Below are positions 8,868-48,002 of a stretch of DNA of 64,000 nucleotides, piece after piece (positions within the stretch are counted from its first letter, which is position 1; the number at the start of each line of letters is the position of its first letter). Both the position numbers and the translations under genes were made by a program. Below the pieces are notes generated by a model, which saw only the letters and a list, made by a program, of their open reading frames with translations, did not search any database and was not told the origin of the DNA. The stretch is from Macrolepiota albuminosa (Eukaryota; Basidiomycota; Agaricomycetes; Agaricales; Agaricaceae): the NCBI GenBank assembly GCA_027475525.1, contig JAMWFC010000049.1, positions 6,246,947 to 6,310,946 of the forward strand, read 5' to 3'.

Positions 8868-8906
8868 AGCGCGTACTTCCAGGACATGCTCCCTGAGCTC
8901 CTGGTA

Positions 8907-9400
8907 TCAGTGGAGAGGTAAGTCCTCTCCATCAGGGTCTATGCAGCAGTCTGCCTGCACATACTCATGAGGCTCGTGAGCCTCCCCAACTACATCACTC
9001 TCAAAGTAGCGCGACAAGCAGTCTGCCACTTTGTTGAGTTCACCTTTAACATAGGTGATGTCGAACTGGTATCTCGACATGTAGTCTATCCACCGTCGCT
9101 GACGCAGCGACAAGTTCACCTGAGTTTTGAAGAACTCAAGGGCCTTGTGGTCCGTTATGATGTGGATGGGATATCCCATCAGCTTATCCTCCCACTTGAG
9201 GAGGGCCTCAAGTATGGCAAGAGTCTCCAGCTTGTGCACCGCATAGTTTTGCTGGGCTGTCGTGAACTTCTTCAACATGAACCCTGCTGGGCGGCACGTC
9301 TGCCAGCTGCTTCCCTGGCTGTACATGGCTCCGATGCCTGTCTTGGACGCGTTGCAAATGAGCCATATTGGCTCGTCCTGTCTAGGGTCGATTGGTCAAA
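8907..9400 (-). pseudogene. RNase H domain (element 2), catalytic Asp lost
   Basis: The ORF 9326-8907 carries KKFTTAQQNYAVHKLETLA (RNase H Glu motif), ITDHKALEFF (Asp motif) and YVKGELNKVADCLSR (C-terminal Asp). Upstream, reached after a frameshift and one stop, the frame reads PIWLICNASKTGIGAMY, where relatives have C-D-A-S-K. The first catalytic Asp is therefore Asn (GAC to AAC), so this copy could not have an active RNase H even without the stops. The next block (integrase) follows in the same frame after one TGA near 8907. Confidence 0.8.
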
Positions 9401-10654
9401 TCACTGGAGTCTTCGTACAATCCGTTTGACCATCTCGAAGCACCACTGATGCAACGGCCTCCAATTGAATGGTGCCCCATTCTGTGTCATGGCCATAAGT
9501 GGCCCAGTATAGGCTGTGACATCGGGCAAGAAGCTCGATATGTAGTTGACAAGACCAACGAACCGTTGGATGTCATTGTAGTTTTGGGGTGTTCGCCACT
9601 CCTGAATGCGATCGAGCTTGTCCTGATCGGGGTGGATACTCCGCTCATCTATGACATGCCCTAGGCAGTCTATACTCTGAGCGTAGAGCTCACATTTCTT
9701 CCACTTCAAGTACAACTTGTACTTGCGCAGTCGTTTGAATACGGCTCTGAGGTGCTGCTCATGCTCCTCCATAGAATCTGAATAGATGAATATGTCATCT
9801 AGGTAGACGTGCATAAAACATCCTATTACGTCTTGGAAGATAGAGGTCATTAGCCTCTGGAAAGTTGCTGGAGCATTACAGTCTCCAATCTGCATTATAT
9901 TGCTCGTGAACATGCCCATGATCAATGCAAATACGGTCTTGGGTACGTCCTTGGTGCGAATGCACACCTGCTTGTAAGCGTCAGTAAGGTTGATCTTCGA
10001 GCGATACTTTGCCCGAGCCATGTCTTCCCGGATCACCTCTTGATCTGGTAAAGGCGTTACATCCTTTATGGTATTGTCATTGCGCTGACGCGCATCAAGA
10101 GCTGTTTGAAGGGTTCCATCCTTCTTTGGGATGCACAATAATGGTGCAGCTTGAGCGGTGGTGCATGGGGACCACCATTGAGCATTCAAATAGCGATTAG
10201 TCTTATCGCGTAGTTGCTCCTGGAGGGCGCGCGGACAGCGCGGCAAGTGGTACTTATACTGCTTGTTCTCGTCTATGAGATTAATCTCATGGTTCACCTC
10301 CCGCCACGGCGGGAGCTCCTCCTTGGTCCCATTGACCATGTCGGCAAATTCTTCTTGCCATTGCTGACGCAACCGAGGAATATCTTCCTCACTAAGGCTT
10401 GTCGCCTTCTGCTTCCCCTTCATACGCACCGGGGGAAGTACTTCCACCGTCTCTGAGAGTGGCCGAGGCGGCGGTGCATACTGTTTGCGCATTGCGAGCA
10501 CCCGATTGACACTGTCATTGGGTATATGTAGTCTCAGCAGAGCACCCGCTGCCGCTGCCTTATAAGCCACGAGGCTTTTCCCCTCACATACAAGTGAGTA
10601 CGCTACGGACACCTCGTCCGAGACTGGCTGGCGATATGCTGGTTTGACGGTCAT
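9401..10654 (-). pseudogene. Reverse transcriptase domain (element 2)
   Basis: 417 aa. Key motifs: CIPKKDGTLQTALDARQRN, SKINLTDAYKQV, GDCNAPATFQRLM and the catalytic YLDD box (YLDDIFIYSDS, around 9780-9815), followed by the thumb/connection region. The ORF itself has no stop, but it is cut off from RNase H by a frameshift near 9395 and from the protease by broken sequence at 10655-11080. A relative with the same order of motifs lies at 44310-46380. Confidence 0.9.
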
Positions 10655-25951: not shown

Positions 25952-25955
25952 CCAG
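25952..25955. other. Target-site duplication, left copy (ccag)
   Basis: ccag directly before the left LTR (25956), repeated as ccag at 37283-37286 directly after the right LTR. ORF2 of the LINE continues in frame if the element and one copy are removed. Confidence 0.85.
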
Positions 25956-26905
25956 TGATGACGCCCAAAGTTTGGTCAGTAACCAATGTAGCTGGGGTGT
26001 TACCGTACCAAGAGTGTGCGTTGGGCGCGCTATAAGTGATATGAGGAGTCCCGGGCAGGTCCCAGAGAACGCGTCTGTGAAAAAGGGTAAAAGTCGGTAA
26101 CGAAGTCGGCAAGTGTCAAGCGCTAAGGTAAAGCGCCTAAGGAAATGCGGTAAGTGAAGACGGCAAGGGTGAGCGGCAAGAGCACGATAAGCTTAGCGAA
26201 GTTCTAAGCGTTGATAATGCCTGCCGTAGTTGCAAGGCGCGAGTATGTCGAGTGTTGGCGAACGTCTGCAACTGCCGATGAGTTTTGACGTTGCCGACCG
26301 TAGCGTAAATGAGCTCTTGAGCGTAAGGGAGACTGAAGTAAGTGGGGGAAACTGTGGTCTATTCGTCTGCTGTCCTATGTACAAGTCGGTAAGTACTTTT
26401 ATACTACAATGAGTTCGCCGTCGCCAGTGGCTAATGACGCCAGAGTGCGGTAAACTGGAAAATTTCAAAGGGGTAGCTCCAACGGTTTCAGATCCCTACC
26501 GTCCATTCAAGAGCCTTAGCGACGCCAGGCGACAGATCGCGAAGCTAAACCATCACTCCATCACCCTTCTGTCTGTCAGAACACCTAAGCGACGTTGGGC
26601 GCCAAATCGAGACGGTAAGCGGTGTCAGACGCCAAGGTCAAACGCCAAGCTGTCCGTCAGTTTTTGATAGATCATCAAGCTTCTCGCTAAGCGCTGTCGT
26701 CAGTGACTGATGCCATCTGTCAGTTGTCATTCTTGCTGCCGTCGGCGCTATCATTGATTGGATCTGCTTCTTGCCGTGCGCGGCCGTCAGAAATGGCTTA
26801 AAATGGGTAGAACGCGTGCGCTAAGTTCGGAACGAGTGCGGCAAGGTTTCCGGAGCCGGTGCCGAGCCTGCCGTTGATGTGCCTAACCTGTATAGGGTCC
26901 TATCA
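25956..26905 (-). repeat. 3' LTR of element 3
   Basis: 950 bp. On the plus strand it starts tgatgacgcccaaag and ends gggtcctatca. I counted 17 CGSYAA/TTRSCG hexamers in it, against about 2 expected by chance. It differs from the other LTR at five sites, three of them in CpG context. Confidence 0.95.
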
Positions 26906-26916
26906 TCTCCCCCCAA
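26906..26916 (-). promoter_or_regulatory. Polypurine tract of element 3
   Basis: Sense strand reads TTGGGGGGAGA immediately before the 3' LTR, the expected place and composition for the plus-strand DNA primer. Confidence 0.8.
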
Positions 26917-27073
26917 CTGAAAAATTGACTGTCCTCAGTCACCAAATAAGGCTACCGTTACCGTTTTTGTGACAAGTGGCCCGTGCGTTCTTGAGATTTG
27001 GTTTATAGTCCTGGCGCATGAGTGTGGACTTCGTTTCTCCTCCCCATCTTTTCCTGGCGCTCAATTAAATAAA

Positions 27074-29482
27074 ATGTCTTTCCGCATTCCAACTCCGCCA
27101 CCTGTTCCCTCCCGTGAGGCTCAAGACGCCGCCTCGGCCTATATCGAAAAGGCGAACAATTTTCTTAAGCGGATCGAAGGCGTTGGCGCGGACGCGCCAG
27201 TAAATTTGGTGGTTGCCGTCATGAAGCTGTACGAGCGGTGGCTGGAGGTGCGCGTTCTTGGCGTGGGATGGGATCGCGAAATCGAGGTTCGGGAATGGTG
27301 CCGGTCGCGGTACCTGGATCATCGTGGCGCAGAGTGGCTAGCGCCCTATGCTCGATTTGTAAGTAGCTTCTAGTTCTTGCCGTGTCGCTAGCTGATTGGG
27401 TTCCTAGGCGCCTCCTCCTGTCCCCACCATTGAGGACGAGTTGGAGGATATCCTTTCGGGTGCCTTGCCGATGACGGTAAGCGCGCCTGCGCCTGAGTAA
27501 GTATTCCTAACCCATTCTTTTGACTTAGCTTTGGTCTGACTTGTCGCCCCATAGCAAACAGGAGGTGTTGGCGCCCCTGGCGTGCATGCAAGTGGCCGAG
27601 GAGCTGGCGACGCGGCAAGAGGAAGTGTCTCAGGATGCCCGGGAGATCACCAGGGCTCTGGAGGAGCGGGAGCGGGTCAGGGAGTTGGCGGAGGAGATGG
27701 AGGGAGTGGCTGCGGGGAAGGCGCCTGCCGTTGAGAGGCAGGCGGTAGCAGAGGGATCCGGCAAGGTAGGTCGCGCCAGCAGCACCTTGAGCCCAGTGTT
27801 GCCGGCTAGCAAGTCGGGCTCGCCGAGGAAGCCGGCAGGTGCTTCCAAACGCAAGGTAAGTGCTGTTTTTGCTTGCCGTTGCCGACGGTCGCTAACGACA
27901 TTTACAGAGTCGCAAGGCGGCTCCTCAATACGCGGTGAGTGGTACTTTTCTTTTTGGCCTGAAATTACTAAGTCATTGTAGGCGCCAACACAATCGAGCT
28001 TTGACGACAAGGAGCTCAAAGGACTTTTGTTGCCGCGTCGCGAGGAGGCAGTCCTGGATGAGGGGCAGGAGGCCGGGGTCGTAATGGAGGAAATGAAGGG
28101 GAAGAAGACCGTTTCCTTAGCGACACGGCAAGCATTCAAGGAGGCGCGGGGAGCGGTAAGTGACTCTTCTATCTTTTTGAGCTTTCTCTGACTTATAGCG
28201 CTAGTGTGACAAGTGCTGGGCGGATAACGACCCAGAAGGCTGCTGGTTCCCGACTGGGGCCCAGCCGTGTTATCGTTGTGGCGCCCTCAAGCGCGCCTGT
28301 ACTATCGATGGGGCCAAGAGTCGGGAGCGTGGCGGCGCGCCAGATGCCCTCGTCGAGAAAACGTTCTCGCGTGCGGTCTTGGTTAGGAGAGCAAGGGAGT
28401 TTGTGGAGGGGCAGAGGGAGAAGGTCGCTGCTGGTGGTATGGCAGCCATTGGACGTGCCTCCTTGGCGTTGCCGACACGCCAAGGAGATGGGACGGAAAC
28501 AGTCGGCCAACGAGGCGCTGGAGAGCGCCAAGGGACTTCGGTCCCAGAAAAACGACAAGCCCCTTCCCCAAGCAAGGGGAAGGGCAAAGCAAAACGTCCT
28601 CGCGTGGTTTCATCGTCGCCCTCCCCCTCGCCAGCGCCAAAGGATACCGAGATGGAGGACCTCGAGAAGGCGTTGGCGGCGAGTCGCCTGCCTCCTCGTG
28701 ACACAGAGGCTGGCCCCAGCGGTCTCTTGTCGCCTATCCACTTGGCGGCAAGATCTCTTGGCGGGGAACAGGAGGAGGGAGAACAGGAAGCGGTTGGCGA
28801 CTCGGCGCCTCAAGAGGAGCGGGAAGACGCTCCCGCAGACATCAAGATGGGGGAGGAGAAGGCAGAGGGGGCGGCAATGGGAGGGGATGAGGACGCTGAA
28901 GGGGAGGTGGATGAAACCTTGGCGACGCAGCGCCAAGGCGACGAGGAGGTGGTAGCGGGAGAGGGCGAGGCAGCGGCAGAAGTCGCCCGGGAGGAGCCTC
29001 AGTGGCGGTGGCTACCGCCTTACGGTAACGTTGCCCCCTGGGAGGTGTCAGATCCCGAGGACGTTGCCGGCCTGGAGCCTAGGCACCCCGTGGTCGCCAG
29101 GGTCAATCCTGCCTGGACCCCTCAGCCGGAGCCGACGGTCACTGGCGACGCTTTCCAGTGGCTGGGACAAGACCTCGTGTACCCGGTGGTGGCACTTAAC
29201 CCGCGGGAGATGCTGGAGAGGTTCTCAAGTAGGGCGGCAACGATGGAGGCAGCAATGGGTCGGGAGCGGGAACGTGTCCGGGGACAACTCATGGCGCTTC
29301 GCCTGCGCTACTCCAACTTGGGGCGCAGCCTGCGCGTTCTTCGAGATTACCAGGACGACTGCCAAGCCGCCATCGATTGGCAAACCTCCAACGACATCCA
29401 GCCTGGCGATCTTCTTCCCTTGCGCGACTCCTCTTTACCAGTGTTGGATAGCTCCTTGCCGATGGACGATGAAAGCGACTGA
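27074..29482 (+). CDS. Antisense accessory gene of element 3: Zn2Cys6-like coiled-coil protein
   Basis: Six exons by my splice model: 27074-27358, 27408-27496, 27555-27855, 27908-27934, 27982-28155, 28205-29482; 717 aa. Introns are 47-58 bp with GTAAGT/GTAAGC-like or GTGAGT donors, CTRAY-like branch sites and AG acceptors. For the last intron the acceptor at 28204 is required, since 28198 gives an immediate stop. N-terminus: helical (AYIEKANNFLKRIEG ... YERWLEVRVLGVGW). Residues 293-324: Cys cluster CX2CX8CX8CX2CX6C (CDKCWAD ... CYRCGALKRAC), close to fungal Zn2Cys6 but with a longer first loop. Then a basic KGKGKAKRPR signal-like patch, an acidic low-complexity region and a C-terminal coiled coil (about 29210-29360). 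It runs opposite to pol, so its introns are not removable from the element's genomic RNA. DNA binding and nuclear location are inferred. Confidence 0.75.
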
Positions 29483-29914
29483 GCGGACCTTAGCGTAGAT
29501 AGGCCGCTTATGTAAATATTTTCTTTTTTTGCTACCGTTCAATTTTATTCCTGTCTTGCCGCCTCGTTTTTGAGTGAAAGGATAAGTCCCATAATCTGAG
29601 TTAGCGCAGCTGCAGAAAGTAGAGAAAGCGAAGCCAAGAGAAAGCAAGCGGCAAGTATTCTAAAATAGGTTTTAGCAAGAAGAGTAGTAGGTGAGGGACT
29701 TAGACAAATTTTGAGGACAAGGGAAACGCTCAGTAAATCATCATGGCGAAAACCCTTGGCGAGAGTTGCGCAATGCGCTAAGCGTTGGCGACACGCTAGC
29801 GCTGCGACTTGACTACGTAAGGAATCGTCTGTTGAATATAGTATAGTAAGTCACGGCAAGAAAGATAAGTAAGGTAAGTAATAGAAAAATAAGAGCTTAT
29901 CAGTACTGTCTTTT
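29483..29914. other. Spacer between accessory gene and pol
   Basis: The two genes converge here, tail to tail. No ORF of note. It contains the CGSYAA-type motif (for example gcggcaag near 29650) and AT-rich stretches suited to 3' ends of both transcripts, but no terminator could be pinned down. Confidence 0.4.
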
Positions 29915-32900
29915 CTAATCATTTTCTTCTTCTTCAACTAGAGTCGGTAAGTCATCATCGTCCAATAGTTCGGTTTCCTCAAGTTCTCTTAACTTGGCGG
30001 TGTCGATATCTAGCGCTTCCAGCGGCAAGTCGATTTGTTCCCTAGCGAGATACGGTAATAGGCGAAAAGCGGCAACAGGTCGATGCAGCACTGAACCATC
30101 TAATTCACAGAGCACGTAAGCGCCTCCACGGTTACGAGAGATAACTACCAAGGGTCCCAGATAGCGCGGGCGCATCTTCTTATTGTACGAGGTTTCAATT
30201 TTGGAGTTGCGCATAAGTACTAGCGCTCCTCTCGGGAAGTTGTAATCTTTGATGGTAGCGCTATGCTCGGTCTCGAATCGTAATGCTGCTTGGCGACGTG
30301 CGCTAAAGACTACCTCGTGGAGTCGCTCTAAATCTTCTTTCCTTCGCTGGAGATCAATAGCTCGTCTGGCGATAAGATCGGTAGTCGCTAAGATGCTGTT
30401 GGGAGCTGGCTGAAGGTAGGTTGCTTCTATGATGTCGGCAGGGAGTAAAGGATGGGTGCCAGTAGCCGCGTAATAGGGAGAGCAACCCATGCGCTTACGA
30501 ATAGTAACTCTTTCCGACCAGAACACTGAATAGGTCGCTTCGCTCCAACGAGACTCGTCGCCATCGACTGCCTTGAAGAGTGCTTGCCGAACGTCAAAGT
30601 GGGGTCTCTCTACCAGGCCATTGGCGCGCTTGTTATAGCCAGATACTCGAATGTGGTGAATATTGTATTTCTTGGCGAGGTAAGTTAGCGCTTTGATGAT
30701 GGGCGCACCGTTATCCGTGACGATTTCTCTTAGCGCTCCCCATCGGCAGATGACGTCTTCAAATAGCCACTTAGCGACCGCCTCGGTATTTTCTCTTTGA
30801 AGCATGCGAAACTCAGGCCAGTGGATTAGCGAACAACGACCTTGAATGATGTACTTGTAGCGACCAGATTTAGGCATATGCATGGTGTCGACGTAGATTT
30901 TGCTGAAGAGGGGAGCTGGCGTTGCAACGGTTGGCGGTATGAGCACTTGGCGTGTCTGCTGGATTTGGCAGAGGTGGCAAGTCCTGATGTACCAGGCGAT
31001 GTCGGCACTAGCGTGTGGCCACCAGAAGCGTTCTAACAGAGAAGCTCGAGTAGCGTACAGACCTCTATGACCTAGCTCGTCATGCATAGCGCGTAGGACT
31101 CGTAAGCGACTTTCTGGCTTGATGATCAGCTTGTGAGCGCCATCTCGATTTCGTCGCCAAAGTCTGTTGTCGGTAAAGAAGAAATGGGTAGCGTAGCGGA
31201 TAAAGGTCGCGTATTGTTCGTCGGTAAGGTCTGGGGGTCGCTTAAAGTCTTGTATCCATTGCTCGACTACTAACAAGCGACTATCTTCCGCCTTTGCTTT
31301 AGCGGATCGGGGGACGGCATCGTAGGTCAGGTTTCTGCTGTCTTCTCTTAGCGACTGGGGTTCTTGTACGACTTTTTTTGGAGGCAAGTCTTGTCCAAGG
31401 ATGCTTGCCATGTAGAATGTGAGGGGTGCGCTAAAGGTCTCGGGGCGGTAAGGGACAATGGGATGTAGAAGGATGCTGGCAGGCTGTTGCCGTCGTAGTA
31501 GGGGAATCGGTTGTTGTATGAGGTGCACGAAACCATGTAGTCTATCGATCCAGTCCTCGAAATCGCTATCAGCCTGTGGGTCCACTGCCGGGTCGCCAGG
31601 CTGCCGTGGTCGCCTAGAAAGTCCATCTGGGCCGTGGAAAGAGCTCTTGACGTGTACCAACTCAAAGTGGAACATGAGGATGGCGACTACCCACCGGTTC
31701 ATGCTAGCGGATGGCTGGATATCGGGATTCTGCAGCATGCCTTTGATGTACCTAGCGTCGACTTCAACAATAAGGTTGCGCACGCCAATCAAATACATCT
31801 TTAGCGACCGGAAGGCTTTGAAGAGTCCATAAAGCTCCAGCTTAGGCTGACTGTAGCGAGACTCTCTGTCGTTAAGCGTGATAGACCCAAAGCGGTTGTA
31901 GCGTCGCTGTTTTCGATTGTCGCTAAGGCATTGGCACAAGAAGTAGCCAACGGCAATGTACGAGGTATCCACCGCCAAGATGACAGGGTCGGCAGAGGTA
32001 TAATCGATGGGGACTAGGGGCTTGGCGTCTTGTAGGGCTTTTACTAAGTCGCGTTGTGCAGTGACCTGGTCTGGCCCAAATTCGAAGGGCTCGTTAGCGC
32101 GGGTGAGTCGGTTAAGGGCATGTGCGCGATGGGCAAAGTTCTTAACGAATATCCTAAGAACGCCAACGGTGCCAAGAAAGGCGCGAACTTCAGATAAGTC
32201 GCGGCAAGGACCCCAGCGCTCCAAGAGTGCTAAGCGAGATTCGTCGGGAACACGACCGTCGGGAGTGCAGATGTGACCAAGTATTTTGAACCTTGGCGCG
32301 CAAAGGAGAAGTTTGTGGCCGCTAAAGGTACCACCGCTATACTTCATACGTTGGAGAACTCGATTGAGCAGCTGGAAAAACTCCCATAGCGCTAAGCGAA
32401 TGTTGTGGTTCTCGGGATGGGTCGCCGGTAAGCCGTTTACGAGTCGCCAGTCTTTGGGACCTTTGACGCCAACGTCATCAATGAAGCTTAAGACGTTATG
32501 CGGTATCTCGGGTTGGAGGATGAATGTGATGTCGTCATGAAATATGGGGACTGAGTTTGTCCAGCCCATCGGTAAGGTGACTAGGCGCAGTGCGCCAAAC
32601 GGAGTTTGAAACGTAGTGAGGTCGCAGGAAGAAGGGTGAATCAAGCGCTCATCGTAGCCAACGTAAAGATCAAGGGTGGCGCCACAGATACGCCCGGCAA
32701 AGGACTCGGCAAAGTGGTCAGGGAAAGGCGGTACGCCAGAGTGTCGTATGGTTACTCTATTCAGCGGCTCAAGACTGTGAACTATGCGTAGATTGCCGTT
32801 CTTTTTGAGGACGCAGAACCAACGGGAGCGGTAAGAACTATTTGAGGGCTCGTAGACGCCAGCCTGTATCTTGGTCCTAATGATCTGGCAGACCTCGGCC

Positions 32901-33664
32901 TCGATCCCAGGCGGTAACGGTCGGTTGTGCTCAGTCCACGGCACGTGGGGGATGGTCGGGATGACGACAGGCGGGAAGAAATCTGTACGTAGACTGCCGC
33001 GTTCGGAGTCCTCCCAAGCAAAGGCTTTGTCTTGCTTAGCGACAAGATCGGTAAGGACGTTCAACTCATCTTTGGTCAAAAATCCTGTGTCGTGCTCCTT
33101 GGCAAACTGCTGTTGGCGTTCCTTGGTAAAACGTCCTGTGGGCTGAAAGGGTGGCGGATTTGGTGACAAGGTCGGCATGTCGGCAAGAGGGTCGCCTATG
33201 ATCTGGCGCTCGATTCTAAACGTCTCGGGAGAGTGCGTAGCGATTGGTTTTGTTTTAAGCGCAACTGGCTTATATTTCTTTTTAACTTGTACCCCTTTCC
33301 TTTTGGGAGCGTTAGCTTGGTTATACACAGAGGTGGAAAGGGGAACTGTAGCCTGAGGGGCGGCAAGTCCAAGAACGGCAGGAGACGAGGCTCCGGGAAG
33401 AGTGGTGAGATAAGTATCGGTAGACGCAATATTTTGAAATGACTCGGAAGCGGTAAGGTACAAGTAGGCAAGAGAGGAGTCGGTAATATTTTGGTTTTTC
33501 TGGGAAGGTTCTGCGTCGGTAGTGGGTAAAGTAGTTAAAACGTCTTGGTCAAGAAAAGCAGTAGACAAAACAGTTACAAGACCAGTTGAATGGTCAAATT
33601 CCAGCGTTAGCGCTACATCTCCGTGATCGTCGCCAATCACCTCCTCGATGGTCTGTGAAAACAC
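29915..33664 (-). CDS. Pol polyprotein: RT, RNase H, integrase (element 3)
   Basis: 1249 aa, uninterrupted. RT (about 235-480): NLRIVHSLEPLN, LDLYVGYDER, LPMGWTNS and a FIDDVGVKGP catalytic box, a Phe variant of the usual Y-x-D-D. RNase H (about 560-680): ILAVDTSYIAVGY, YSQPKLELYGL, VEVDARYIKG and HGPDGLSRR, so all catalytic acids are present. Integrase: HHCC domain (HDELGHRGLYATRASLLERF ... CHLCQIQQ), core with IYVDTMHMP, IVTDNGAP and a LVERPHFD Glu, giving an intact D-D-E. A GPY-like region (YLGPLVVISRNRGG) follows, no chromodomain. It overlaps gag-pro by 28 bases in the -1 frame, suggesting frameshifting. Confidence 0.95.
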   Translation of the reverse strand: MFSQTIEEVIGDDHGDVALTLEFDHSTGLVTVLSTAFLDQDVLTTLPTTDAEPSQKNQNITDSSLAYLYLTASESFQNIASTDTYLTTLPGASSPAVLGLAAPQATVPLSTSVYNQANAPKRKGVQVKKKYKPVALKTKPIATHSPETFRIERQIIGDPLADMPTLSPNPPPFQPTGRFTKERQQQFAKEHDTGFLTKDELNVLTDLVAKQDKAFAWEDSERGSLRTDFFPPVVIPTIPHVPWTEHNRPLPPGIEAEVCQIIRTKIQAGVYEPSNSSYRSRWFCVLKKNGNLRIVHSLEPLNRVTIRHSGVPPFPDHFAESFAGRICGATLDLYVGYDERLIHPSSCDLTTFQTPFGALRLVTLPMGWTNSVPIFHDDITFILQPEIPHNVLSFIDDVGVKGPKDWRLVNGLPATHPENHNIRLALWEFFQLLNRVLQRMKYSGGTFSGHKLLLCAPRFKILGHICTPDGRVPDESRLALLERWGPCRDLSEVRAFLGTVGVLRIFVKNFAHRAHALNRLTRANEPFEFGPDQVTAQRDLVKALQDAKPLVPIDYTSADPVILAVDTSYIAVGYFLCQCLSDNRKQRRYNRFGSITLNDRESRYSQPKLELYGLFKAFRSLKMYLIGVRNLIVEVDARYIKGMLQNPDIQPSASMNRWVVAILMFHFELVHVKSSFHGPDGLSRRPRQPGDPAVDPQADSDFEDWIDRLHGFVHLIQQPIPLLRRQQPASILLHPIVPYRPETFSAPLTFYMASILGQDLPPKKVVQEPQSLREDSRNLTYDAVPRSAKAKAEDSRLLVVEQWIQDFKRPPDLTDEQYATFIRYATHFFFTDNRLWRRNRDGAHKLIIKPESRLRVLRAMHDELGHRGLYATRASLLERFWWPHASADIAWYIRTCHLCQIQQTRQVLIPPTVATPAPLFSKIYVDTMHMPKSGRYKYIIQGRCSLIHWPEFRMLQRENTEAVAKWLFEDVICRWGALREIVTDNGAPIIKALTYLAKKYNIHHIRVSGYNKRANGLVERPHFDVRQALFKAVDGDESRWSEATYSVFWSERVTIRKRMGCSPYYAATGTHPLLPADIIEATYLQPAPNSILATTDLIARRAIDLQRRKEDLERLHEVVFSARRQAALRFETEHSATIKDYNFPRGALVLMRNSKIETSYNKKMRPRYLGPLVVISRNRGGAYVLCELDGSVLHRPVAAFRLLPYLAREQIDLPLEALDIDTAKLRELEETELLDDDDLPTLVEEEEND

Positions 33665-35949
33665 CGGTGGGGAGGCTCGTTGGCGTGCTGGTCGGTAAAC
33701 TCCGGGGGCTTAGCGCGGGCGCCTTTTCGTTGTCCCCTAGGGAACGTTGGCACCGTTCGTCGGATTCCGGAATTTGGGTCGCTAATTGTGAGGGTCGTTT
33801 CCTCGTCGGTAACTGTCTTGACGACTGATCGCGCCAAGACGTCGAAGGGTCTGCCGAGTAGTAAGTCGTAAGCCGGGGAGCGTAAAATGTGGATCTGAAG
33901 ATAAAACGTAATGTCGCCAAGGGTGCACGGCACATTCTTGGCGAGGCCTAGGGATCTGTCTACCGTACCGTTAGCGCTCTGCATGTTTAGTATAACGGTA
34001 GGGTCGTAAATGAGGCCTAGATCGTTAGCGACTTCTGCTGCCATAGAAATAATCTGAGACCCGCTATCAACAATTGCCTCTACCTCGTGCTTGTTGTCTA
34101 CGGTTAGCGCTACCGAGCGGATAGCGTGCGATTCTTGAGCGACGGTAAGAATGGCCGGGTCCTCTCCATGGTCCACAGACCTAAGGTAGGTCTCCACAGG
34201 GTCCACAGAGGTGGCGTTAGCAATGGTGTCGGCAGGAGAATCTTCAGCGTCCAGCGAGTCGACGGTAACAGAAAAACCAGGGAGCGCGTCGTCGAGATCC
34301 TCGACCTCGGCAACGGTTGTCGCCAAGGGTCGTCGGGGAGTGACTGCCGTCTTGACCTGGTTGCGGACGTCGGGAGCAATACTACAAAGCTCTTCTACTG
34401 ACAAGGTGACATGGGTTTTCATGATGCGGTTAAAAACGTGGTTGGATTTCTCGATATCGAATATTGGCGCGGTTGGTCGGTAGCCACCCTCAGGACGTTT
34501 CTCGGGAGCGGCAAAGTTTCGTTGTGCGGGAGCGTGATAACGGTCGGAAATCCCTGAATAGGGATGGAGAGGCGGCAAAGGCGGTTCAGGAACGGTAGCG
34601 GACGACGATGGTTCTGAAGCAGGAGCAGGGGCAGTGGCAGGAGGTGCGGCAGAAGCAGGTGTCGGTAACTTGCTAGCGGGAGGCATTGGCTTATATCCTT
34701 TGAGAGGTTGTTTAGGCTGCTTAACTTCAACCCCATCAAAGACCTGGTTCTTTAGCGAATCTAATTCCTGCTGCAGCTTGGCGATACGCTCTTCCCGCGA
34801 GAAAGTAGGGTGGTCGCCAACGCTGTCGAAATGTAAGACCTCGTGAATTATCTGCTGTTGGGTCGCCTGTTCGGGGTCGGGGTTGGCATTGCCAGATAGC
34901 GTGCCGGTAACGATTTGTCCTGGATTGCGCCTATGCCACTCATCAACTCGCTCCTGGAAGGACTTCTTGTCGGGGTAGTTGGGGATGGTGGCGCCAGTGG
35001 TAAGAACTATCTTGCCGTCGATAGCCCTTCGAATTCTACCTTGGCGAACGTAATTCTCGAGGGTAGCGCAGCGTCCTCTAGTCATAGTATGGCCAATTTC
35101 CCCACAGAAGTGGCAAGGGCCAGGTGCGGGAACGTTAGCGGGTCGGTTAGCCGTGAGGTTGGTGGTAATCATGGTTTCGATGCGAGTCATAGCGGAAGCA
35201 ACAGCGGCGGTAATAGCAGCATTGAGCTCCTCTTTCTTAACGAAGTCGGCAACAGGAGGCGGGATGGGAATGATACCGTTAGTTCGCTCAGGGGGTGGGC
35301 TCATCCTAGCGCGTTGCAGTCCAACGCCAGTGTCCGTTCCCTTGAGAACCCATTTACCGGCTTCAAAGACGTCGGCAACGTTATAGGGCTCGTCTGGGTG
35401 ATGAGCCTGGTGAACTATCTCTAGGCGACGAGCAATACGAGTCCAAAGCGAAGTCGGGATGCCTTGCTGGAACAGGCGACGCTCCTCGTTAATATAGAGC
35501 TTGCCGTTCTGCAGAAGCCACCTAGCGATCTTCTGGAACTCGCGGTAATACGTGGAGAATGCGCCAAGCGACGATGTGCCACTGTCGAAAGATTCCTGAA
35601 CTAGTTTCTGGAGCTCGTTTACCGTGTATCGGGTAGCCTCCTCGGCGCCAGGGTACAGCTGGATCACTGCTGTCTTCCAGTCCTCATACGAAGCGCCTTG
35701 GGCTGGAACTGGCGGTGCGGCAGGAACAAAGGCGGCAAACTCGGTCAAACCTGTCCACGTCTCTGCCGTGTCATACGATACGTATCTTGCCGCGTACTCC
35801 TTCATCTGCGTGTGGTCGGTAATGTTACAATCTCTGAATAAATACTCCAACTCCTTGAAATATTGGGAAAGCTCCCGTGGCTTGGTCTCGTCCCATTTCG
35901 GTGCCGAGAAGTGGTTGCGTGGCGGCATGCGCTGGACTTGTTGTTCCAT
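33637..35949 (-). CDS. Gag-pro polyprotein (element 3)
   Basis: The open frame extends upstream to 36078, but no ATG exists in that frame before 35949 (MEQQVQRMPPRNHF), which gives 770 aa. Domains: capsid-type Gag (about 10-200, FSAPKWDETKPRELSQYFKELEYLF), a CCHC knuckle variant (CHFCGEIGHTMTRGRC), a long Pro/Ala-rich linker, and a C-terminal retropepsin (VEAIVDSGSQIISM active site; AYDLLLGRPFDVL second motif). Stop is within the start of pol. Uninterrupted, as expected for a young copy. Confidence 0.9.
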   Translation of the reverse strand: MEQQVQRMPPRNHFSAPKWDETKPRELSQYFKELEYLFRDCNITDHTQMKEYAARYVSYDTAETWTGLTEFAAFVPAAPPVPAQGASYEDWKTAVIQLYPGAEEATRYTVNELQKLVQESFDSGTSSLGAFSTYYREFQKIARWLLQNGKLYINEERRLFQQGIPTSLWTRIARRLEIVHQAHHPDEPYNVADVFEAGKWVLKGTDTGVGLQRARMSPPPERTNGIIPIPPPVADFVKKEELNAAITAAVASAMTRIETMITTNLTANRPANVPAPGPCHFCGEIGHTMTRGRCATLENYVRQGRIRRAIDGKIVLTTGATIPNYPDKKSFQERVDEWHRRNPGQIVTGTLSGNANPDPEQATQQQIIHEVLHFDSVGDHPTFSREERIAKLQQELDSLKNQVFDGVEVKQPKQPLKGYKPMPPASKLPTPASAAPPATAPAPASEPSSSATVPEPPLPPLHPYSGISDRYHAPAQRNFAAPEKRPEGGYRPTAPIFDIEKSNHVFNRIMKTHVTLSVEELCSIAPDVRNQVKTAVTPRRPLATTVAEVEDLDDALPGFSVTVDSLDAEDSPADTIANATSVDPVETYLRSVDHGEDPAILTVAQESHAIRSVALTVDNKHEVEAIVDSGSQIISMAAEVANDLGLIYDPTVILNMQSANGTVDRSLGLAKNVPCTLGDITFYLQIHILRSPAYDLLLGRPFDVLARSVVKTVTDEETTLTISDPNSGIRRTVPTFPRGQRKGARAKPPEFTDQHANEPPHRCFHRPSRR

Positions 35950-36311
35950 GGCGACGGCGGTAACGAGTTCGGTTAGCGGTAGTGGGGAAGAAGTTCTAGA
36001 GATTGGCGACGGGGTAAGAGAAATAGCGAACTGAGAAAGCGGTGTTAGAGGAGTGATGGGGGTAACTGATTGCGGCAAAGTAAAGGGCGACGCTAAGGGG
36101 TCGTCGGCACTATAATCGAGGGAATGCGGGAAGAGATCAGGAAAAGCGTCTACAGTGGCGTTCTGTAGTTCCTGGGCTAGAGAGAGACCCGGTAAGGCAC
36201 CAGGTGGTTGTGGGGTTGATGGGTGGGAAGGAGCTATGCCTTCTGCCGACTGGTCTAGCAGGCGGCGCCTACGCTGAAGACGGGTTTCTGGCGGAATTCT
36301 GCCCTAGAGAT
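35950..36311 (-). other. Leader of element 3
   Basis: Between the PBS and the first gag ATG. The gag frame is open through much of it with TTG/CTG codons but no ATG. Packaging signals would be expected here; none can be identified by eye. Confidence 0.5.
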
Positions 36312-36329
36312 CCCTCGCGGTGGGCTCCA
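36312..36329 (-). promoter_or_regulatory. tRNA primer-binding site of element 3
   Basis: Sense strand TGGAGCCCACCGCGAGGG, three bases after the 5' LTR. TGG pairs with the tRNA CCA end; the next base implies a U discriminator. The same site survives in the relict at 52103-52120 (TGGAGCCTACTGTGAGGG), with C-to-T changes only. I do not assign the tRNA. Confidence 0.85.
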
Positions 36330-36332
36330 ATT

Positions 36333-37282
36333 TGATGACGCCCAAAGTTTGGTCAGTAACCAATGTAGCTGGGGTGTTACCGTACCAAGAGTGTGCGTTG
36401 GGCGCGCTATAAGTGATATGAGGAGTCCCGGGCAGGTCCCAGAGAACGCGTCTGTGAAAAAGGGTAAAAGTCGGTAACGAAGTCGGCAAGTGTCAAGCGC
36501 TAAGGTAAAGCGCCTAAGGAAATGCGGTAAGTGAAGACGGCAAGGGTGAGCGGCAAGAGCACGATAAGCTTAGCGAAGTTCTAAGCGTCGATAATGCCTG
36601 CCGTAGTTGCAAGGCGCGAGTATGTCGAGTGTTGGCGAACGTCTGTAACTACCGATGAGTTTTGACGTTGCCGACCGTAGCGTAAATGAGCTCTTGAGCG
36701 TAAGGGAGACTGAAGTAAGTGGGGGAAACTGTGGTCTATTCGTCTGCTGTCCTATGTACAAGTCGGTAAGTACTTTTATACTACAATGAGTTCGCCGTCG
36801 CCAGTGGCTAATGACGCCAGAGTGCGGTAAACTGGAAAATTTCAAAGGGGTAGCTCCAACGGTTTCAGATCCCTACCGTCCATTCAAGAGCCTTAGCGAC
36901 GCCAGGCGACAGATCGCGAAGCTAAACCATCACTCCATCACCCTTCTGTCTGTCAGAACACCTAAGCGACGTTGGGCGCCAAATCGAGACGGTAAGCGGT
37001 GTCAGACGCCAAGGTCAAACGCCAAGCTGTCCGTCAGTTTTTGATAGATCATCAAGCTTCTCGCTAAGCGCTGTCGTCAGTGACTGATGCCATCTGTCAG
37101 TTGTCATTCTTGCTGCCGTCGGCGCTATCATTGATTGGATCTGCTTCTTGCCGTGCGCGGCCGTCAGAAATGGCTTAAAATGGGTAGAACACGTGCGCTA
37201 AGTTCGGAACGAGTGCGGCAAGGTTTCCGGAGCCGGTGCCGAGCCTGCCGTTGATGCGCCTAACCTGTATAGGGTCCTATCA
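36333..37282 (-). repeat. 5' LTR of element 3
   Basis: 950 bp, 99.5% identical to 25956-26905 by hand comparison. On the sense strand it begins TGATAGGACC and ends GGGCGTCATCA. Confidence 0.95.
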
Positions 37283-37286
37283 CCAG

Positions 37287-39039: not shown

Positions 39040-40570
39040 CCGCATTTTGCAACTCCCTGTGACTTTGCAACCCAGTACATGTGATAGTATGTACCGCTTT
39101 TGTCCTGGCTAGTAGAGGTTGACATATATGCACTGTCGTCTACTATGCCACTGAGGCACCCCCCAAAAAAAAACATACCTGGCAGGACTCACGTGTCTGG
39201 ATCAATTCGCATTTATACTGTCATACAAATGGGACTTTAGTTACTATTTTCCCTCATTATTTTCTAGTCGTATGAAGAGGCGCAACGACAACCGTCAGAA
39301 CTAAGGGAATGAAAGTCATTGCTGTTCATAGGAGCTACACATCACACGTAAGACAATCGCGAGACCACCTTCTTCTCGTACAGAGTGTGCTGTACCTATG
39401 CAAGTCTGTGTAAATCTTTTCTCTCCATGGTTGCCCTCTCTCACCCGGCATTTGACCAATCGGCTATGGCGCAACCAGGTGTTTATATAGGCATGACTCC
39501 TCCCTGAGTCTCAACTACCTCCAGGACTTGTTTCGCCTTAGCGCATTTTGGTGCGTCTGTTTCTGTTTTCAGTATCATCTTCAGAAGATTGCGCATTGGC
39601 CAAGAATCCTCACAGTGGGTCAAGCAGTGGCCAGCGAGAGTCATTGGTGAGCTAAGTAAACACATCAGGCACCAGAACATGAGTAACAGAAGTTCCTGAC
39701 CAATCGGCATATTGATTTTACCGTTTCTTGGTTTTAAAATCGAAAAGATCGCGACATATTCAGATATTTTGTTTGACTCACTAGGGTGCAGAGCTCTTGT
39801 CCAACGCATGCCAGACACCTCCCAACTCTACAGGCTGCGGCTGCCGGTAAGACGAGTTTCTTGTGGGCTTGGAGGTGGTATCGTTGGAAGTCCGGTAGGA
39901 TCAGCTGTCGATTGCATTTGTGAATTTGAATGGAAATTAATTTGGATGACGTTTGATGATCCCAGTGCGTGGGTCTTCAAGTATCTGACTGACATGCGAA
40001 AAGATAGCAGTGATGAGGCAGCACGGCTGACGTGTGTTTGAGGTGGTAGTCATGTCTGGAGGGCTCAGAGGGCCAGCGACGAGAGGTGATGATGTGTGAC
40101 ATAGACTTGAAATGCGTTGGTATAACAAATAAAAAGATGATTTACAACTTACCGCATGCCATCCTGGACATGTTTCCCCTTGCGACCCTCCCGCTTGCTA
40201 CATGGCAGCGCCGGCATATAGAAGTGTCCGACAGTAGAGGAGGACAGCGCAAGCGTGTAGGGGAGTTTGTTTGAGCGGTGGAGGTAGTCATGCGGCATCT
40301 TTGGGTGAAACGTGAATAGAGTCATTGTCCTGCGCACCGACAAACCTGGAACTTGAAGATGACGCGCGCGGGGTGGCTGGTATACTGAGTGTTGAGACGT
40401 CAGTACGGGGAAGAAGCTACCGATGACTTGGTATGCGTTCATGGAGCGTCTGTGTTCGTGGTTGCATTCATGTTTTATTGGTGGGCTTGCAATTGGGCTG
40501 GGGGGAGAGGGCTTTGGAGGAGTCGACGACCGGCTGCGATTTGGGTTTGCTTGCGGTTTGCGGAACAGTA
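39040..40570. other. No supported gene
   Basis: Short ORFs in several frames only (the longest on plus 39712-40041, on minus 39483-39818). No motif, no convincing intron chain and no repeat family recognised. Confidence 0.4.
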
Positions 40571-40576
40571 GGGCAG

Positions 40577-41062
40577 TGGGTAGCGGGAAAAGGCAGTGGG
40601 AAAAGGCAGTGGGAAAAGGCAGTGGGAAAAGGCAGTGGGAAAAGGCAGTGGGAAAAGGCAGCGGGAAAAGGCAGTGGGAAAAGGCAGCGGGAAAAGGCAG
40701 TGGGAAAAGGCAGCGGGAAAAGGCAGCGGGAACGGGCAGTGGGGACGGGCAGCGGGAACGGGCAGCGGGGACGGGCAGCGGGAACGGGCAGCGGGAACGA
40801 GCAGTGGGGACGAGCAGTGGGAACGGGCAGTGGGGACGAGCAGTGGGAACGGGCAGCGGGGACGGGCAGTGGGAACGGGCAGCGGGGACGGGCAGTGGGA
40901 ACAGGCAGTGGGAACGGGCAGTGGGGACGAGCAGTGGGGACGGGCAGCGGGGATGGGCAGTGGGGACGAGCAGTGGGGACGGGCAGCGGGGATGGGCAGT
41001 GGGGACGAGCAGCGGGGATGGGCAGTGGGGACGAGCAGTGGGGACGGGACAAGGGGCAGTGG
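40577..41062. repeat. 13-bp minisatellite, about 37 units
   Basis: Unit ggcagtgggaaaa and variants. The array has three zones: ggcagYgggaaaa (40577-40730), ggcagYgggaacg / ggggacg (40730-40900), then a zone rich in gagcagtggggac (40900-41050). Since 13 is not a multiple of three, all six frames stay open and give six ORFs of about 180-330 codons; these are by-products and not genes. Confidence 0.95.
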
Positions 41063-44000
41063 GTCGCTCACGCTCGGAGTTATCTTTGTTAGTTCCTGTT
41101 ATCCCGCAGCCCCCCTTGTCTGCCGGCCCGACAGATCCTGACACGCCCTTCCTGAACTAGGCCTTAGCAATAGTCAATGCTCCCGAGCGTGTCGGCACCG
41201 TCTTTGCCCAACCTCGTCTCCACCATTCCAAGCCGTTCCTCGCCATCATGTTCCACATACACTCACATATGTAGTACCGCGACCTCGACTGCGTGTCATA
41301 TGTCTTGGCGTGGTGGCACGGATTCGTTGTGGGCTTCGTGGCCGAAAATATGAGGACAGAGACGCGGGTTTCGACAAAAGGCAGACAAGTTCCGAGTCCT
41401 GCATGGATATGAAGACGGTCGAGGACAAATCCAGAGCGAGGAGCAGGCGTATGGTACGAGTAGCTCATCCCCGTCTCGCTCAAGAGACCTTTTTTGTGTG
41501 ACGTGTAACCGTGTCACGGTGAGATTACACGAGAGATAAGTAATGTTAGCGCACAGAGAACGAATGATATACGAGATAGCTACGCTATGGACAGCTTGGA
41601 TAAAAATTTAGAAAAATGGATGTGTAAGTGAAAGTGGTACGGTGTTTCACCTGTATGTCGCTGCCGCAAGGCCCGACGCTCAGATTCCAATAAGATGGTC
41701 GCTACACGTGACCACGAGCCGTTATCGAGCGTCGCGCTCCGAGCAGCAGTCTGCAACGTTGGCAGCGGTTCTTCTTGGACGCCGCGGCATCGGAGATGCG
41801 CGCTCTTCTGAGATTCCTTGTCCTTTGCCCTTGCCCCCGTCCTCGCGAGGACAGTCCTTACCGTCGCACGCTATCATTAGACCTCCATCATGGCAGTCTC
41901 CTACCCCGGCCAGTACCCCCTCCGTCCACAGTCCCGCGCCTTCAGTCCGCTCCGTAGCATCCACCATCCGCAAAAGCACCGTGCAAATCAACCAAGCCGT
42001 CGACGTCCTCCTGTCCGGCCTCCTGTGTCTCCCTTGCTTTGACGTCTCCAACAACGTCGTCGCTACGCGTCCATGGTGTCCTCCACCTTCCGCACAGCAC
42101 AACATCCTCCTCTCCCGTGGTGGAGCACTGCCGCGCGCGCGCGCTGGACATAAAGGCGCCTATGACAAGAGCGCGGACGATGTCTTTGAAGAGCAATGTC
42201 AGCGTTCGGAGCGCGGGTGAGCAGTGTCATTGGGACAAAACGCCCGCCCGTGCCCCCTGTTGATCCGAGGAGCCCGCACAGTGCTGGTGTGGTGAAGAGG
42301 AGCGGTCATCCTTTGGTCGTCATCGTGGTCCCCGTAACCACTCTGCCTATCATCCCCAGGTTCAAGGACAAATGACTGTCGTGTGGGTCAAGCCGTTGGC
42401 GATGAATATGGAGGGAGACCGATGGAATCAAGCGTGCGCGAGCTTCGAATAGGGTCTGGTAACAACACCGTCTTTCTCACCACCATTTGTTGCAACGCGC
42501 GCGAGGCTTATGGTTGAATCATTCATGCGTGCTGTTTGTTATGCCGGTCATCGTGGATGCTCACGCCGATTGTGATCCATTCCGTCCAAGAGCCGAGATC
42601 ATGGGAGGATTTTGGCTGCGAATGCTGATGCGCATAGAGGAATGCAAGCTGATAGAGTCGTTCTTGCGCGCACAAGGGTCGATTGTCTCGGGAGAAGCAG
42701 ATATTCTGGGATCGATGAGGTCACTTGAAGATGAAGAGAGTAGAGCGTTGTCAGATTGCGGCAAATCAAACAAGTGGGCTGTACACACTGTCGCTGAGTT
42801 ACTGGAGTGCCCATCTTTCGAGCTGGTCAAAGCCGTCTTGCTGTCGAATTCCCAACCCAACCTTTTTTCAAATCCATTCAAAGGAGCCATACGGGTCTGT
42901 TCCATCTGAATGCGGACATGAAACTTCGGGCAGTAGAGTGAGAATTGCGGACACCATGTGCCAACTGTGAGTGCAGATTCAAATTTGTTAAAGTCAACTT
43001 ACCTGGTACATAGAGTCAGCGTCGCATTCGTTAACGCCTCTTAACACCAAAGCCATGATCCATTCAACCCGTTTGGCATCCTCAAATGCTTACACTGTCC
43101 CTTTCCATAACATCGTTCCATTCAGACATTGCGAAACAGGCTTCAGGTTGGCTGCACACACATTCATCAATCGTCTTTCACACAGACAGGATCATCTTCC
43201 GTCACTTTGCCTGTCCAGGCATCACCAATGACGGCCCCTAGCCGCGCGAGGGCATGCTCCGCAGCAGACAGCAGTGCAAAAGAGTGGTTCGCTTCCCTAA
43301 ACCACTGAGAATGCCATCCCAGAGCTTGTGAGGGAGCGCCGCAAACTCGCTTGTACACCACCCCTCCGTCGCGCTCCCCGTTCAAACAGGGGATTCTTCA
43401 CATCATCTGCGAGAGAGAACTCGAGGACAGATCATGACAAATCACATTGCCGTGCTAGCAGTCGTGCAACGTCGTGCAACTTCTTCGTGGAGAGGATACA
43501 GCGATTAACTTGAGATTTTTCAAGGGCCCTCAAGTCAGATTCCAACCTCATTTCTCTTCATTCCGTCTCAGCGTGGAAAATGCACAGGACAAAGCCTATA
43601 GGAATGTTCTGTATCTCAAAGGCAAAGCTGGAGTCGATTTGATGTTATAGCTATTGTCAGTCAGCTTCTGAATCGCATTTTTTTATTTGCTGGATATGGG
43701 GGGAAGAGCAGGGATGGTACCATATTGGCATCCTACCCAGGTGTACTTCGAGTTTGAGGAAAAACTAGATTGTTCTAAAATAGGAAATAGTCTGAGATTA
43801 CACCGGGAACTTTATTGTAAGCTGAGGATATGTGCCTTGCCAGCTAGGCCAGTGTGAGATAAGGTTGGGTTCGACCGGAATGATGATGATGGAACCTGTT
43901 TAACGCCGGCAAGCTACTATACTGAGCTAAGAGGCAGGCCGATAGGCCAGATGTACAGTACCATGTACAGGGAGCAGCATTGTATGTATCAATGTATTTG

Positions 44001-46380: not shown

Positions 46381-47290
46381 TGATGATGCCCAAAAGTAGA
46401 TCAATAGCAGATATGGTTTATGGCTACTGACCTGTAAGCATTGAGCATGCTAAGTGTTTTGAGGGAGTCCCAAGCAGGTCCCAGAGAACAAGTCAGAAAA
46501 GCTGTTATAAAGTTGGCAAGGAGGTGTCGGTAAGGGTATGTGCTAAGTGTAGGGTGCCTAAGCAACTAAGTTAATTTGGCATGAGTGCAGCAAGAGAGGT
46601 GGTAAGAGGACAAAAGGCTTAGCAATGACTAAGCTGCTAGGTGCCTGCTGTAGGTGTGAGGCATGTAAGTTCCATGAGCATAACTGCAGCAAGCAGGCTA
46701 AGAGTGTTCAGACAATTAGTGACCAAGAACTTAGTCAGCTCCAAAAGAAATCTGAATTGTAGAGTGAACTGAGTGCAGTAGATGGGGTACTCTGTTCTGT
46801 TTTTCAACTATTGACAAGTGGTAAGTATTTATAGTAAGTTGAAGTTCCCCATTGCCAAGGCAAGGTAGAATGGTAAGAATGTAAGTAAAGGCCGAGAATT
46901 AAACTAAATAAAAGAAAATTATGAGCTGGCTGTCCATTCTGCCTGTCTCAAGGTTACCATGTGCTATCAATGTGCTGTGGTGAAACACCAGGCCAGCTGT
47001 CACAAGTTGTTGCATTATTCCTAATTTGTTAGTGCTGTCACTTGCCAGCTGGGCCACGTGCTAATTAATTAGTGCCACCTGTCATGGCTTACCAGTAGTG
47101 TGATGTTAGCTGTCATTTCAGCTGCCACCAGCACTATCACTGATCAATCTTGATGGTTGCCATGCATGTCTGTGGAAATGGCCTAGAAAGGATAAATCAC
47201 ATGTGCCAAGTTCAGCATGAGTGCAGCAAGATATCTGGAACTGATGCCAAGCCTGCCATTGATGCACCTAGCCTGTGTAAGGTCCTATCA
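46381..47290 (-). repeat. Relict LTR, element 3 family
   Basis: Begins tgatgatgcccaaaag and ends ggtcctatca, matching both ends of the intact 950-bp LTR; 910 bp. It carries an extra segment (about 46405-46450) also seen in the other relicts but not in element 3, so it belongs to a sister subfamily. It sits in integrase coding sequence of the relict pol (LTEFTIDANV), so it is a later insertion. CpG is strongly depleted. Confidence 0.85.
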
Positions 47291-47560
47291 ATGTGTCAGA
47301 AACTACTATATATGCACTATTTGAACTCAATAGAGAGTACATGCCATCAATGATAAGGGAGCTAAGGAGCATAGACATAGTGATTGAAGAAATAAAATAG
47401 AAATAGAATGCAGACTTCAGGAGGGTGATGTGGTTAAGCTGGGGTGGCCTAGATGGAATCCAGAAGTACTTAGTTGCTTTGACAAATCTGAAGAGATGGG
47501 TGAAGACAGCAGGAAATGACAGCAGGAAGGATAAGACTCAGCTCATCTCTTTAGTGGGTG
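47291..47560. other. Short unassigned stretch
   Basis: AT-rich, no ORF of note; probably decayed TE sequence. Confidence 0.3.
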
Positions 47561-48002
47561 AATGAGATGAAGAAAGTGCCCATGTCAGTACTGCAGGCAC
47601 TCAAAGAGAAAGTATCAGACAGATTCTACAGTAAGCAAAGACATGCAGGGGACTTGGCTTTCCAGATATGAAAGAGGTGCTGATTCAGCAGGAGATGGCT
47701 GATCTTTAACTGAGTCAGGATGGCTGACTTCTGACAGCTGTAGTCACAGATAAGGTGGAGGTAGTTCTTCAAAGGTAGTGTCTTATTGAGGTGCCTTGTG
47801 GCCCTGTACCATGGCAACTTCTTCCACCTACATTTTTATAGGACCTGTAGGGTAGTGAGGTCAGCTTGGCATATAGCAGCTATGCTAAGCGGAAGTGCAT
47901 TAGTCCTGAGGTAGGCAGGCAGAAGTTGAGCATCACTTGACGGCCTCTTTTGCTAGGGTATCTGCACACTCATTGAGGGCAAAGTTATACTTGTTCTGAA
48001 CT
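47561..48002 (-). pseudogene. Relict LINE C-terminus (RNase H end and zinc tail)
   Basis: On the minus strand: NKYNFALNECADTLAKEAVK (end of RNase H, like NE-x-A-D-x-L-A-K-E), then, after a gap, ILTQLKISHLLLNQHLFHIW and SPACLC, followed by VESV-YFLFECLQY, matching the zinc-tail layout of fungal LINEs (TQLRTGHxPLNxHL ... SPxCxxC ... HFLFECP). Decayed by stops and CpG loss. It truncates the following LTR by about 85 bp. Confidence 0.6.

Follow-up and report, generated by a model that had tools for sequence, protein, structure and literature searches.

Plant long terminal repeat (LTR) retrotransposons have been known since the 1990s to carry genes that run antisense to their gag and pol frames; the function of such genes is still given as unknown (PMC7264820). 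One positional class, termed aORF-3R, comprises antisense additional open reading frames (ORFs) between pol and the 3' LTR; the accessible texts name gene23 of maize Grande, rice RIRE2, Silene Retand and bean PvRetro13, together with fungal Boty and its brtn (PMC7264820, PMC8365987, PMC11963269). The Grande antisense gene is, according to excerpts of this literature, transcribed from its own promoter. Another relevant system is that of the VANC anti-silencing proteins, which remove methylation from Arabidopsis VANDAL transposons. One of them, VANC21, is an accessory protein in which some regions are variable, and it binds the motif YAGTATTAY at high density (PMC5735166). Here, we describe a gene at positions 27074-29482 (plus strand) of a 64,000-nucleotide stretch of Macrolepiota albuminosa DNA (hereafter the window; GenBank assembly GCA_027475525.1, contig JAMWFC010000049.1). 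It codes for a protein, belongs to a family of LTR retrotransposons in a Termitomyces-like fungus and is kept by purifying selection. The element that carries it is filled with a short degenerate DNA word, CG[C/G][C/T]AA (CGSYAA), that seems to be selected as well. We give an even chance to the reading that this is an antisense accessory gene of the known positional kind whose protein is a DNA-binding self-recognition factor working like VANC. The window sits in a 100-Mb assembly of 129 contigs, and all comparisons of copies were made within this one genome.

A sequence-only reading, made by a model from the letters of the window, had proposed a six-exon gene with five introns for a protein of 717 amino acids (aa), and this gene model held up well. 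Exon 1, which carries the ATG, spans 27074-27358, exon 2 27408-27496, exon 3 27555-27855, exon 4 (27 nt) 27908-27934, exon 5 27982-28155 and exon 6, which carries the stop codon, 28205-29482, all on the plus strand. The junctions join in frame to 2,154 nt, that is 717 aa plus stop, and every intron is of the GT...AG type and 47-58 nt long. We read 31 copies across the gene, the window and 30 others (L009-L038). In the 21 copies with the window-type acceptor of intron 3, none of 420 cells of the GT/AG dinucleotides was changed, against 870 of 4,915 other intron cells. This acceptor is not universal, since 7 of the 31 copies use a nearby AAG that stays in frame and gives an exon 4 of 30 nt; in these copies, too, the dinucleotides were unchanged (0 of 126 cells, acceptor 3 excluded). 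With the window's own junctions 16 of the 31 copies are intact, and the number rises to 23 once a copy's own AAG acceptor is allowed. Net length changes of exons are mostly divisible by three (19 of 21), those of introns never (0 of 51; 21 copies, where one old event may count in several copies), and among 15 intact copies alone the counts are 13 of 13 and 0 of 36. The copy L026 has a 77-base insertion in exon 4 and intron 4, which looks as if the region of intron 4, flanks included, had been duplicated in tandem.

Exon 6 lacks internal stops in the modelled frame in 27 of the 31 copies, and each of the other five frames is open in none of them. In a neutral simulation with substitutions only, at 0.1 per site, none of 300 coding sequences stayed free of stops. 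These two results rule out chance open frames. A sense-strand ORF as the source of the conservation was rejected as well, the minus-strand ORF at 27630-28139 being open in 10 of 31 copies only. Codon position 3 accounts for 70% of the pairwise differences, and all six exons vary most at position 3 of the modelled phase, the 27-nt exon 4 weakly so.

The gene is a regular part of a numerous family. A DNA search of the assembly with exon 6 gave 40 places among the best candidates listed, mostly 83-97% identical, the exceptions being the window itself and four short pieces at 75-90%. The corresponding protein search gave at least 100 matches, 69 of those listed being free of stops (one place gives two rows). 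We scored 104 pol hits that are 98-100% identical over 399 residues; in the subset of hits examined, at least 85 of the 104 have the gene, and in all 85 it is antisense to pol. Likewise, where a gene place has a scored pol within 4 kb, the two are convergent in all 51 cases. The proposed orientation, opposite to gag-pol, is thus borne out, and the recurrence of the gene at this site beside at least 85 pols excludes a nested or private insertion. By the list of alleles, 31 of these 85 are of the window type, 38 of the type of locus L043 and 16 of others. The introns have probably persisted because the RNA that is reverse transcribed is the opposite strand; their retention in the copies fits the antisense placement in the genomic RNA. 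Some gene stretches are letter-identical on different contigs (L023 and L025, L031 and L032), and L028 and L030 appear near-identical to L031, with such identity across contigs pointing to recent bursts. Related LTR lineages have the gene as well, as indicated by the leader of L039, in which the 36 bases beside the LTR match those of the window at 97%, and by an LTR match of L048 (79% over 699 bases). A second high-copy lineage (L039-L042, L046 and L047) has the same gene family with an open final frame of about 400-420 aa; pol was not found within the stretch available for these loci.

Codon-level comparisons show that the antisense gene is kept by purifying selection, as the sequence-only reading had suspected. 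Across 21 distinct intact coding sequences (210 pairs, which share ancestry and represent intact copies only) dN is 0.053 and dS 0.516, giving a pooled dN/dS of 0.102. By segment, the ratio is 0.072 in exon 1, 0.178 in exons 2-3, where it is highest, and 0.079 in exons 4-5. Within exon 6 it falls to 0.019 at residues 293-345, which hold a six-cysteine stretch and form the most constrained segment of the protein, and it is 0.122 at residues 346-560 and 0.064 at residues 561-717. In 105 pairs for which gene and pol were both compared, dN/dS is 0.103 for the gene and 0.067 for pol. Of 20 loci examined for both, 5 have gene and pol open, 10 the gene alone, 2 pol alone and 3 neither; the gene is thus intact in 15 and pol has a full open frame in 7, where pol was scored as open if the locus has a frame of at least 1,240 codons, pol is the longer of the two, the pol of L026 was matched in part and assembly errors may add breaks to pol. 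Decay of the gene beside an intact gag-pol, the picture that would speak against selection, is therefore not general. Selection at the codon level is clear in this family, which has about one hundred gene places, or more, in a single genome.

Comparison of copies further shows that the gene stands out as a divergent island from an otherwise uniform element and that its halves are shuffled among copies. In bins of 250 bp the median identity to the window is 78-93% over the region of the gene (about 26956-29700) and 90-98% over LTR, pol and gag. Over the 105 pairs mentioned above, dS is 0.505 in the gene and 0.221 in pol, and the gene has the higher value in 101 pairs. The extreme case is L043, which compared with the window is 95.7% identical in the LTR, 95.6% in the leader, 68-76% in the gene where alignable, 86% in the spacer behind it and 94.5% at the end of pol. 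Its exon 6 is 55% identical overall, while the six-cysteine segment differs at 2 of 32 residues. The distances of the two gene halves correlate overall (Spearman 0.38), and near-identical exons 1-5 are joined to a divergent exon 6 in 6 of 210 pairs, the reverse in 1 of 210. Between the window and L023, for instance, the third-position distance is 0.007 in exons 1-5 and 0.297 in exon 6. Template switching during reverse transcription would be a natural cause of such shuffled halves.

The word CGSYAA emerged without any prior choice of a motif, from a ranking of hexamers against an order-2 Markov expectation over 25956-36332, in which the four top words were CGGCAA (z 15.6), CGGTAA (13.0), CGCTAA (12.8) and CGCCAA (10.3). 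This stretch holds 164 sites against about 29 expected. The observed (expected) numbers are 21 (3.2) in the 3' LTR (25956-26905, minus strand), 36 (6.7) in the gene with its introns, 8 (1.2) in the spacer that separates the convergent 3' ends of gene and pol (29483-29914), 55 (9.9) in pol (29915-33664, minus strand) and 41 (7.0) in the gag-protease ORF (33637-36078, minus strand). The leader from the LTR to the ATG of the antisense gene (26906-27073, plus strand) and the 5' untranslated stretch have 1 and 2 sites and are both too short to judge. Together with 21 further sites in the 5' LTR (36333-37282, minus strand), the field covers 25956-37282 on both strands, and its density drops at both LTR ends. 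Bins of 500 bp contain 3-13 sites (median 8) in the element and 0-3 (median 0) outside, with 0 and 1 in the flanking 500 bp, and the remaining 52.7 kb of the window have 47 sites where 52 are expected. Four other segments of the window that were scanned have different top words. When compared with 359 permutations of its letters, CGSYAA has the most sites (164, the mean being 22). The sites divide into 91 and 73 by strand, which points to double-stranded DNA. Codon bias as the entire cause was rejected, as the word also occurs in non-coding parts, on both strands and in several frames, although a frame skew remains. The L043 locus has 54 sites in 3.6 kb against 9.2 expected, despite its very different gene allele. 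At the Y position, C is preferred in the window's gene and in the L043 locus, C and T are about equal in the window's pol, and C prevails in the remainder of the window; loci of the L039 type favour CGSTA(A/G). These preferences of lineages could be dialects of one word or could reflect base composition.

The word also changes slowly. Among 20 copies, change per base is 0.0335 within sites and 0.0834 outside, which is 2.5 times slower. At third codon positions, rates in sites and outside are 0.053 and 0.135 in pol, 0.028 and 0.158 in gag. At the S position 28 of 47 changes are swaps between C and G, for which the background is 14-15% for C and G, and a changing T at the Y position becomes C in 108 of 112 cases against a background of 57%. 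The fraction of sites kept is 0.886 for CGSYAA and on average 0.703 for the other permutations, CGSYAA ranking sixth among those with at least 10 sites. CGSYAA behaves as a selected short degenerate word across the element, and its presence on both strands, over the whole element and with slow change means that some protein probably reads it. Whichever protein reads it, a short degenerate word whose change is held back throughout an element at third codon positions is an unusual finding.

The antisense protein has features that would suit such a reader. The pattern CX2CX8CX8CX2CX6C occupies residues 293-324 (28205-28300, plus strand) at the start of exon 6 and was matched in 31 of 31 copies. 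A basic patch, KRKSRK, lies across exons 3-4, and a second, KRPR, in exon 6, as does an acidic region; net charge is +9 at residues 181-240, +6 at 361-420 and -19 at 481-540. The cysteine cluster, basic patch and acidic region of the sequence-only reading were accordingly located by residues and charge. Of its C-terminal coiled coil, the helix stood: AlphaFold2 predicts a long helix over residues 333-395 of the exon-6 product (about 625-687 of the full-length protein; pLDDT of the block about 84-94), and pairing of such helices as a coiled coil would be a further step. In the relative P0001, the N-terminal region encoded by exon 1 is modelled as helices at 6-104. The proposed likeness to Zn2Cys6 fared worse. 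Zn2Cys6 domains bind two zinc ions and follow the spacing CX2CX6CX5-12CX2CX6-8C, and those of the fungal Gal4 type prefer CGG half-sites. The cluster described here resembles them in its six cysteines in two CX2C-led halves, in a basic LKRAC in the second half and in the CGG/CGC triplet of the word, but differs in its first loop, X8 instead of X6 and the only departure from the spacing, in the acidic residues between the second and third cysteines and in the lack of a PF00172 match. A Pfam search with the window protein returned as its sole match DUF4690 (E 5.3, below the cut-off and at chance level), and 31 relatives searched up to E 1 had scattered weak matches, PF00172 in none. A Zn2Cys6 identity of the antisense protein is hence not proven. 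The AlphaFold2 models are poor overall (mean pLDDT 58.9 and 55.6), free of metal and below 50 in the cysteine region, for which the earlier reading had proposed structure prediction with zinc. The protein relatives listed are all hypothetical proteins of Termitomyces.

We propose the following sequence of events. The antisense gene would be transcribed from its own side and its mRNA spliced; the resulting protein would enter the nucleus, bind zinc through its cysteine-rich segment and form a coiled coil. This protein would bind CGSYAA, about 16 sites per kb, over the element's own DNA and on both strands, and the dense binding might mark the element, which could thereby escape silencing or regulate its transcription, much as VANC acts on VANDAL elements. 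Template switching between co-packaged RNAs would shuffle the divergent versions of the gene among near-uniform elements. The antisense protein is the only product of the element here that lacks an assigned role, and its six-cysteine segment is its slowest-evolving part, which makes it a plausible candidate for the reader of the word. A more far-reaching version, to which we give somewhat less than an even chance, holds that the element evolved recognition of its whole length independently of VANDAL elements, which are DNA transposons. The cysteine-cluster protein of an antisense, intron-bearing gene would then coat the element's own DNA and little else, by means of a word that selection has written over the entire 11 kb, third positions of gag and pol included; divergent alleles would be shuffled among elements while the DNA-reading core stays conserved, and the word may have shifted to other dialects in other lineages, such as CGSTAR in the L039 type.

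Several observations weigh against this proposal. The word is sparser in other gene-bearing lineages (22 sites against 6.0 expected in L048, 19 against 9.0 in L039), and its enrichment across such lineages may reflect shared ancestry. A single one of the six strand-frame classes holds 20 of the 55 sites in pol and 17 of the 41 in gag, so that codon choice contributes something. In the non-coding DNA alone (1.8 kb) the top single hexamer reaches a count of 9, within resampled maxima of up to 13. The protection of the word is uneven: a changing C at the Y position becomes T in 28 of 40 cases, about equal to the background of 66%, the last A is unprotected in the gene (0.154, outside 0.139) and G and Y are unprotected in the spacer (0.121, outside 0.126). 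Slow change extends to the bases on either side of the word (0.058 and 0.049), and five permutations exceed CGSYAA in the fraction kept, four of them sharing most of its letters in order. On the side of the protein, the cysteine region was not folded by the predictor and no relative was found in Pfam or the PDB. Finally, the VANC21 motif is, in the accessible part of its description, mainly non-coding, often in tandem repeats and in one orientation, while CGSYAA lies in coding and non-coding DNA on both strands.

Among the alternatives, the one that survives best, although we regard it as rather unlikely, separates protein and word: the antisense protein would be a nuclear accessory regulator comparable to HBZ of HTLV or GENE23 of Grande, and something else, for example the integrase, the Gag nucleocapsid or a factor of the host, would read CGSYAA. 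The antisense genes already known from this position encode proteins of unknown role that are nuclear or may bind DNA (PMC7264820, PMC11963269), and the tie between our protein and the word is one that we infer. However, the word is element-wide, on both strands and, within the window, dense in the element only, which suggests a factor encoded by the element, where the antisense protein alone has no assigned role.

Self-restriction or immunity is improbable in our view. Here the protein would limit its own family by copy-number control, and new alleles would escape repression by common ones. Such a scheme would account for old diversity in a young backbone (dS of 0.50 against 0.22 in pol, and the pattern of L043) and for mosaic alleles. 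Yet dN/dS is low in all segments (0.02-0.18) and gives no hint of positive selection, old alleles are also explained by recombination with related families, and restriction would be weak in a family that is so numerous.

Less probable still is a word field that arose from a bias of mutation or methylation context, for example through CpGs that survive in CGSYAA only. The word does contain a CpG, its flanking bases are slow too, and fungi of this kind are thought to methylate their transposons. Against this, C and G within the word change at 0.038 and 0.029 while CpGs outside sites change at 0.080, the AA half is slow as well (0.018 and 0.049 against 0.098), the C-G swaps at the S position are not predicted by a CpG bias, and the order-2 model already includes the CpG frequency. 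That the antisense RNA alone matters, as double-stranded RNA or by interference with gag-pol, with an incidental frame, or that a host gene was passively captured, we consider hardly credible: such roles of RNA are discussed for plant elements in the accessible part of PMC7264820, but they are contradicted here by selection on codons, by exon indels that mostly keep the frame and by splice sites that do not change among the copies.

The host element itself has the features of a Ty3/gypsy retrotransposon, namely LTRs, a target-site duplication, a primer-binding site, a polypurine tract, a protease, and RNase H followed by integrase. It reads on the minus strand. The 3' LTR has TG...CA ends, and the two LTRs of 950 bp each differ at 5 positions (99.47% identity), which agrees with the youth ascribed to the element from the start. 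The target-site duplication CCAG, read at the LTR ends, lies at 25952-25955 and 37283-37286. A polypurine tract (TTGGGGGGAGA, 26906-26916, minus strand) adjoins the 3' LTR, and a putative primer-binding site, which begins TGGAGCCC and has the TGG start, is placed at 36312-36329 (minus strand) with an assumed length. In pol, Pfam finds clear matches to RNase H and to the H2C2 zinc finger of integrase; RVT_1 is not among the matches listed up to E 10, but a FIDD motif was seen by eye at the expected place, and pol may carry a divergent reverse transcriptase. The gag-protease ORF has gag-asp_proteas above the Pfam cut-off and DUF4100 slightly below its own. Elsewhere in the window, pieces of another LTR element at 929-10654 (gag, reverse transcriptase, a Tf2-like SH3 and a weak chromodomain match) were not hit by the antisense gene in the searches made and show no enrichment of CGSYAA. 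We also noted a minisatellite of 13-bp period at 40491-41098 (31 overlapping copies listed), an inverted repeat at 46979-48233 with arms of 186 nt that are 76% complementary and 883 nt apart, and a Copia-type ORF at 54161-55216.

Regulators of their own family that are encoded by retroelements have been described before. The copy-number-control factor p22/p18 of Ty1 is one such case, as far as the accessible text describes it; the protein described here differs in that it is encoded antisense to the element, in the interval from pol to the LTR. By position, the gene belongs with the aORF-3R: it lies between pol and the 3' LTR, on the opposite strand in most copies, with a conservation similar to that of pol. 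According to the accessible texts, it also shares with this group the lack of recognisable relatives, the nuclear or possibly DNA-binding nature of some products, and one fungal case, Boty. It is set apart by five introns with splice sites conserved over 28 other copies, by measured purifying selection at the codon level, by a recombining island of divergence and by a field of a selected DNA word. For the known aORF-3R, the accessible parts of the open-access literature report no introns, dN/dS or target motif, and in the main text of PMC11963269, as accessible, the word 'intron' is absent. Should the protein indeed be the reader of the word, self-recognition would explain what at least one antisense gene of a retrotransposon does, and selfish elements would be seen to shape even coding DNA to carry a binding site. 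The closest functional precedent for this is VANC21. By family, the antisense protein is not a VANC, as DUF1985 and DUF287, the domains carried by VANC, are not among the Pfam matches of the window protein or its relatives. The likeness lies in the system: there, too, the accessory protein combines conserved with highly variable regions while the protein for transposition is much more conserved, and an element-specific short degenerate motif, YAGTATTAY, occurs at high density, with C/T variants that differ between subgroups (PMC5735166).
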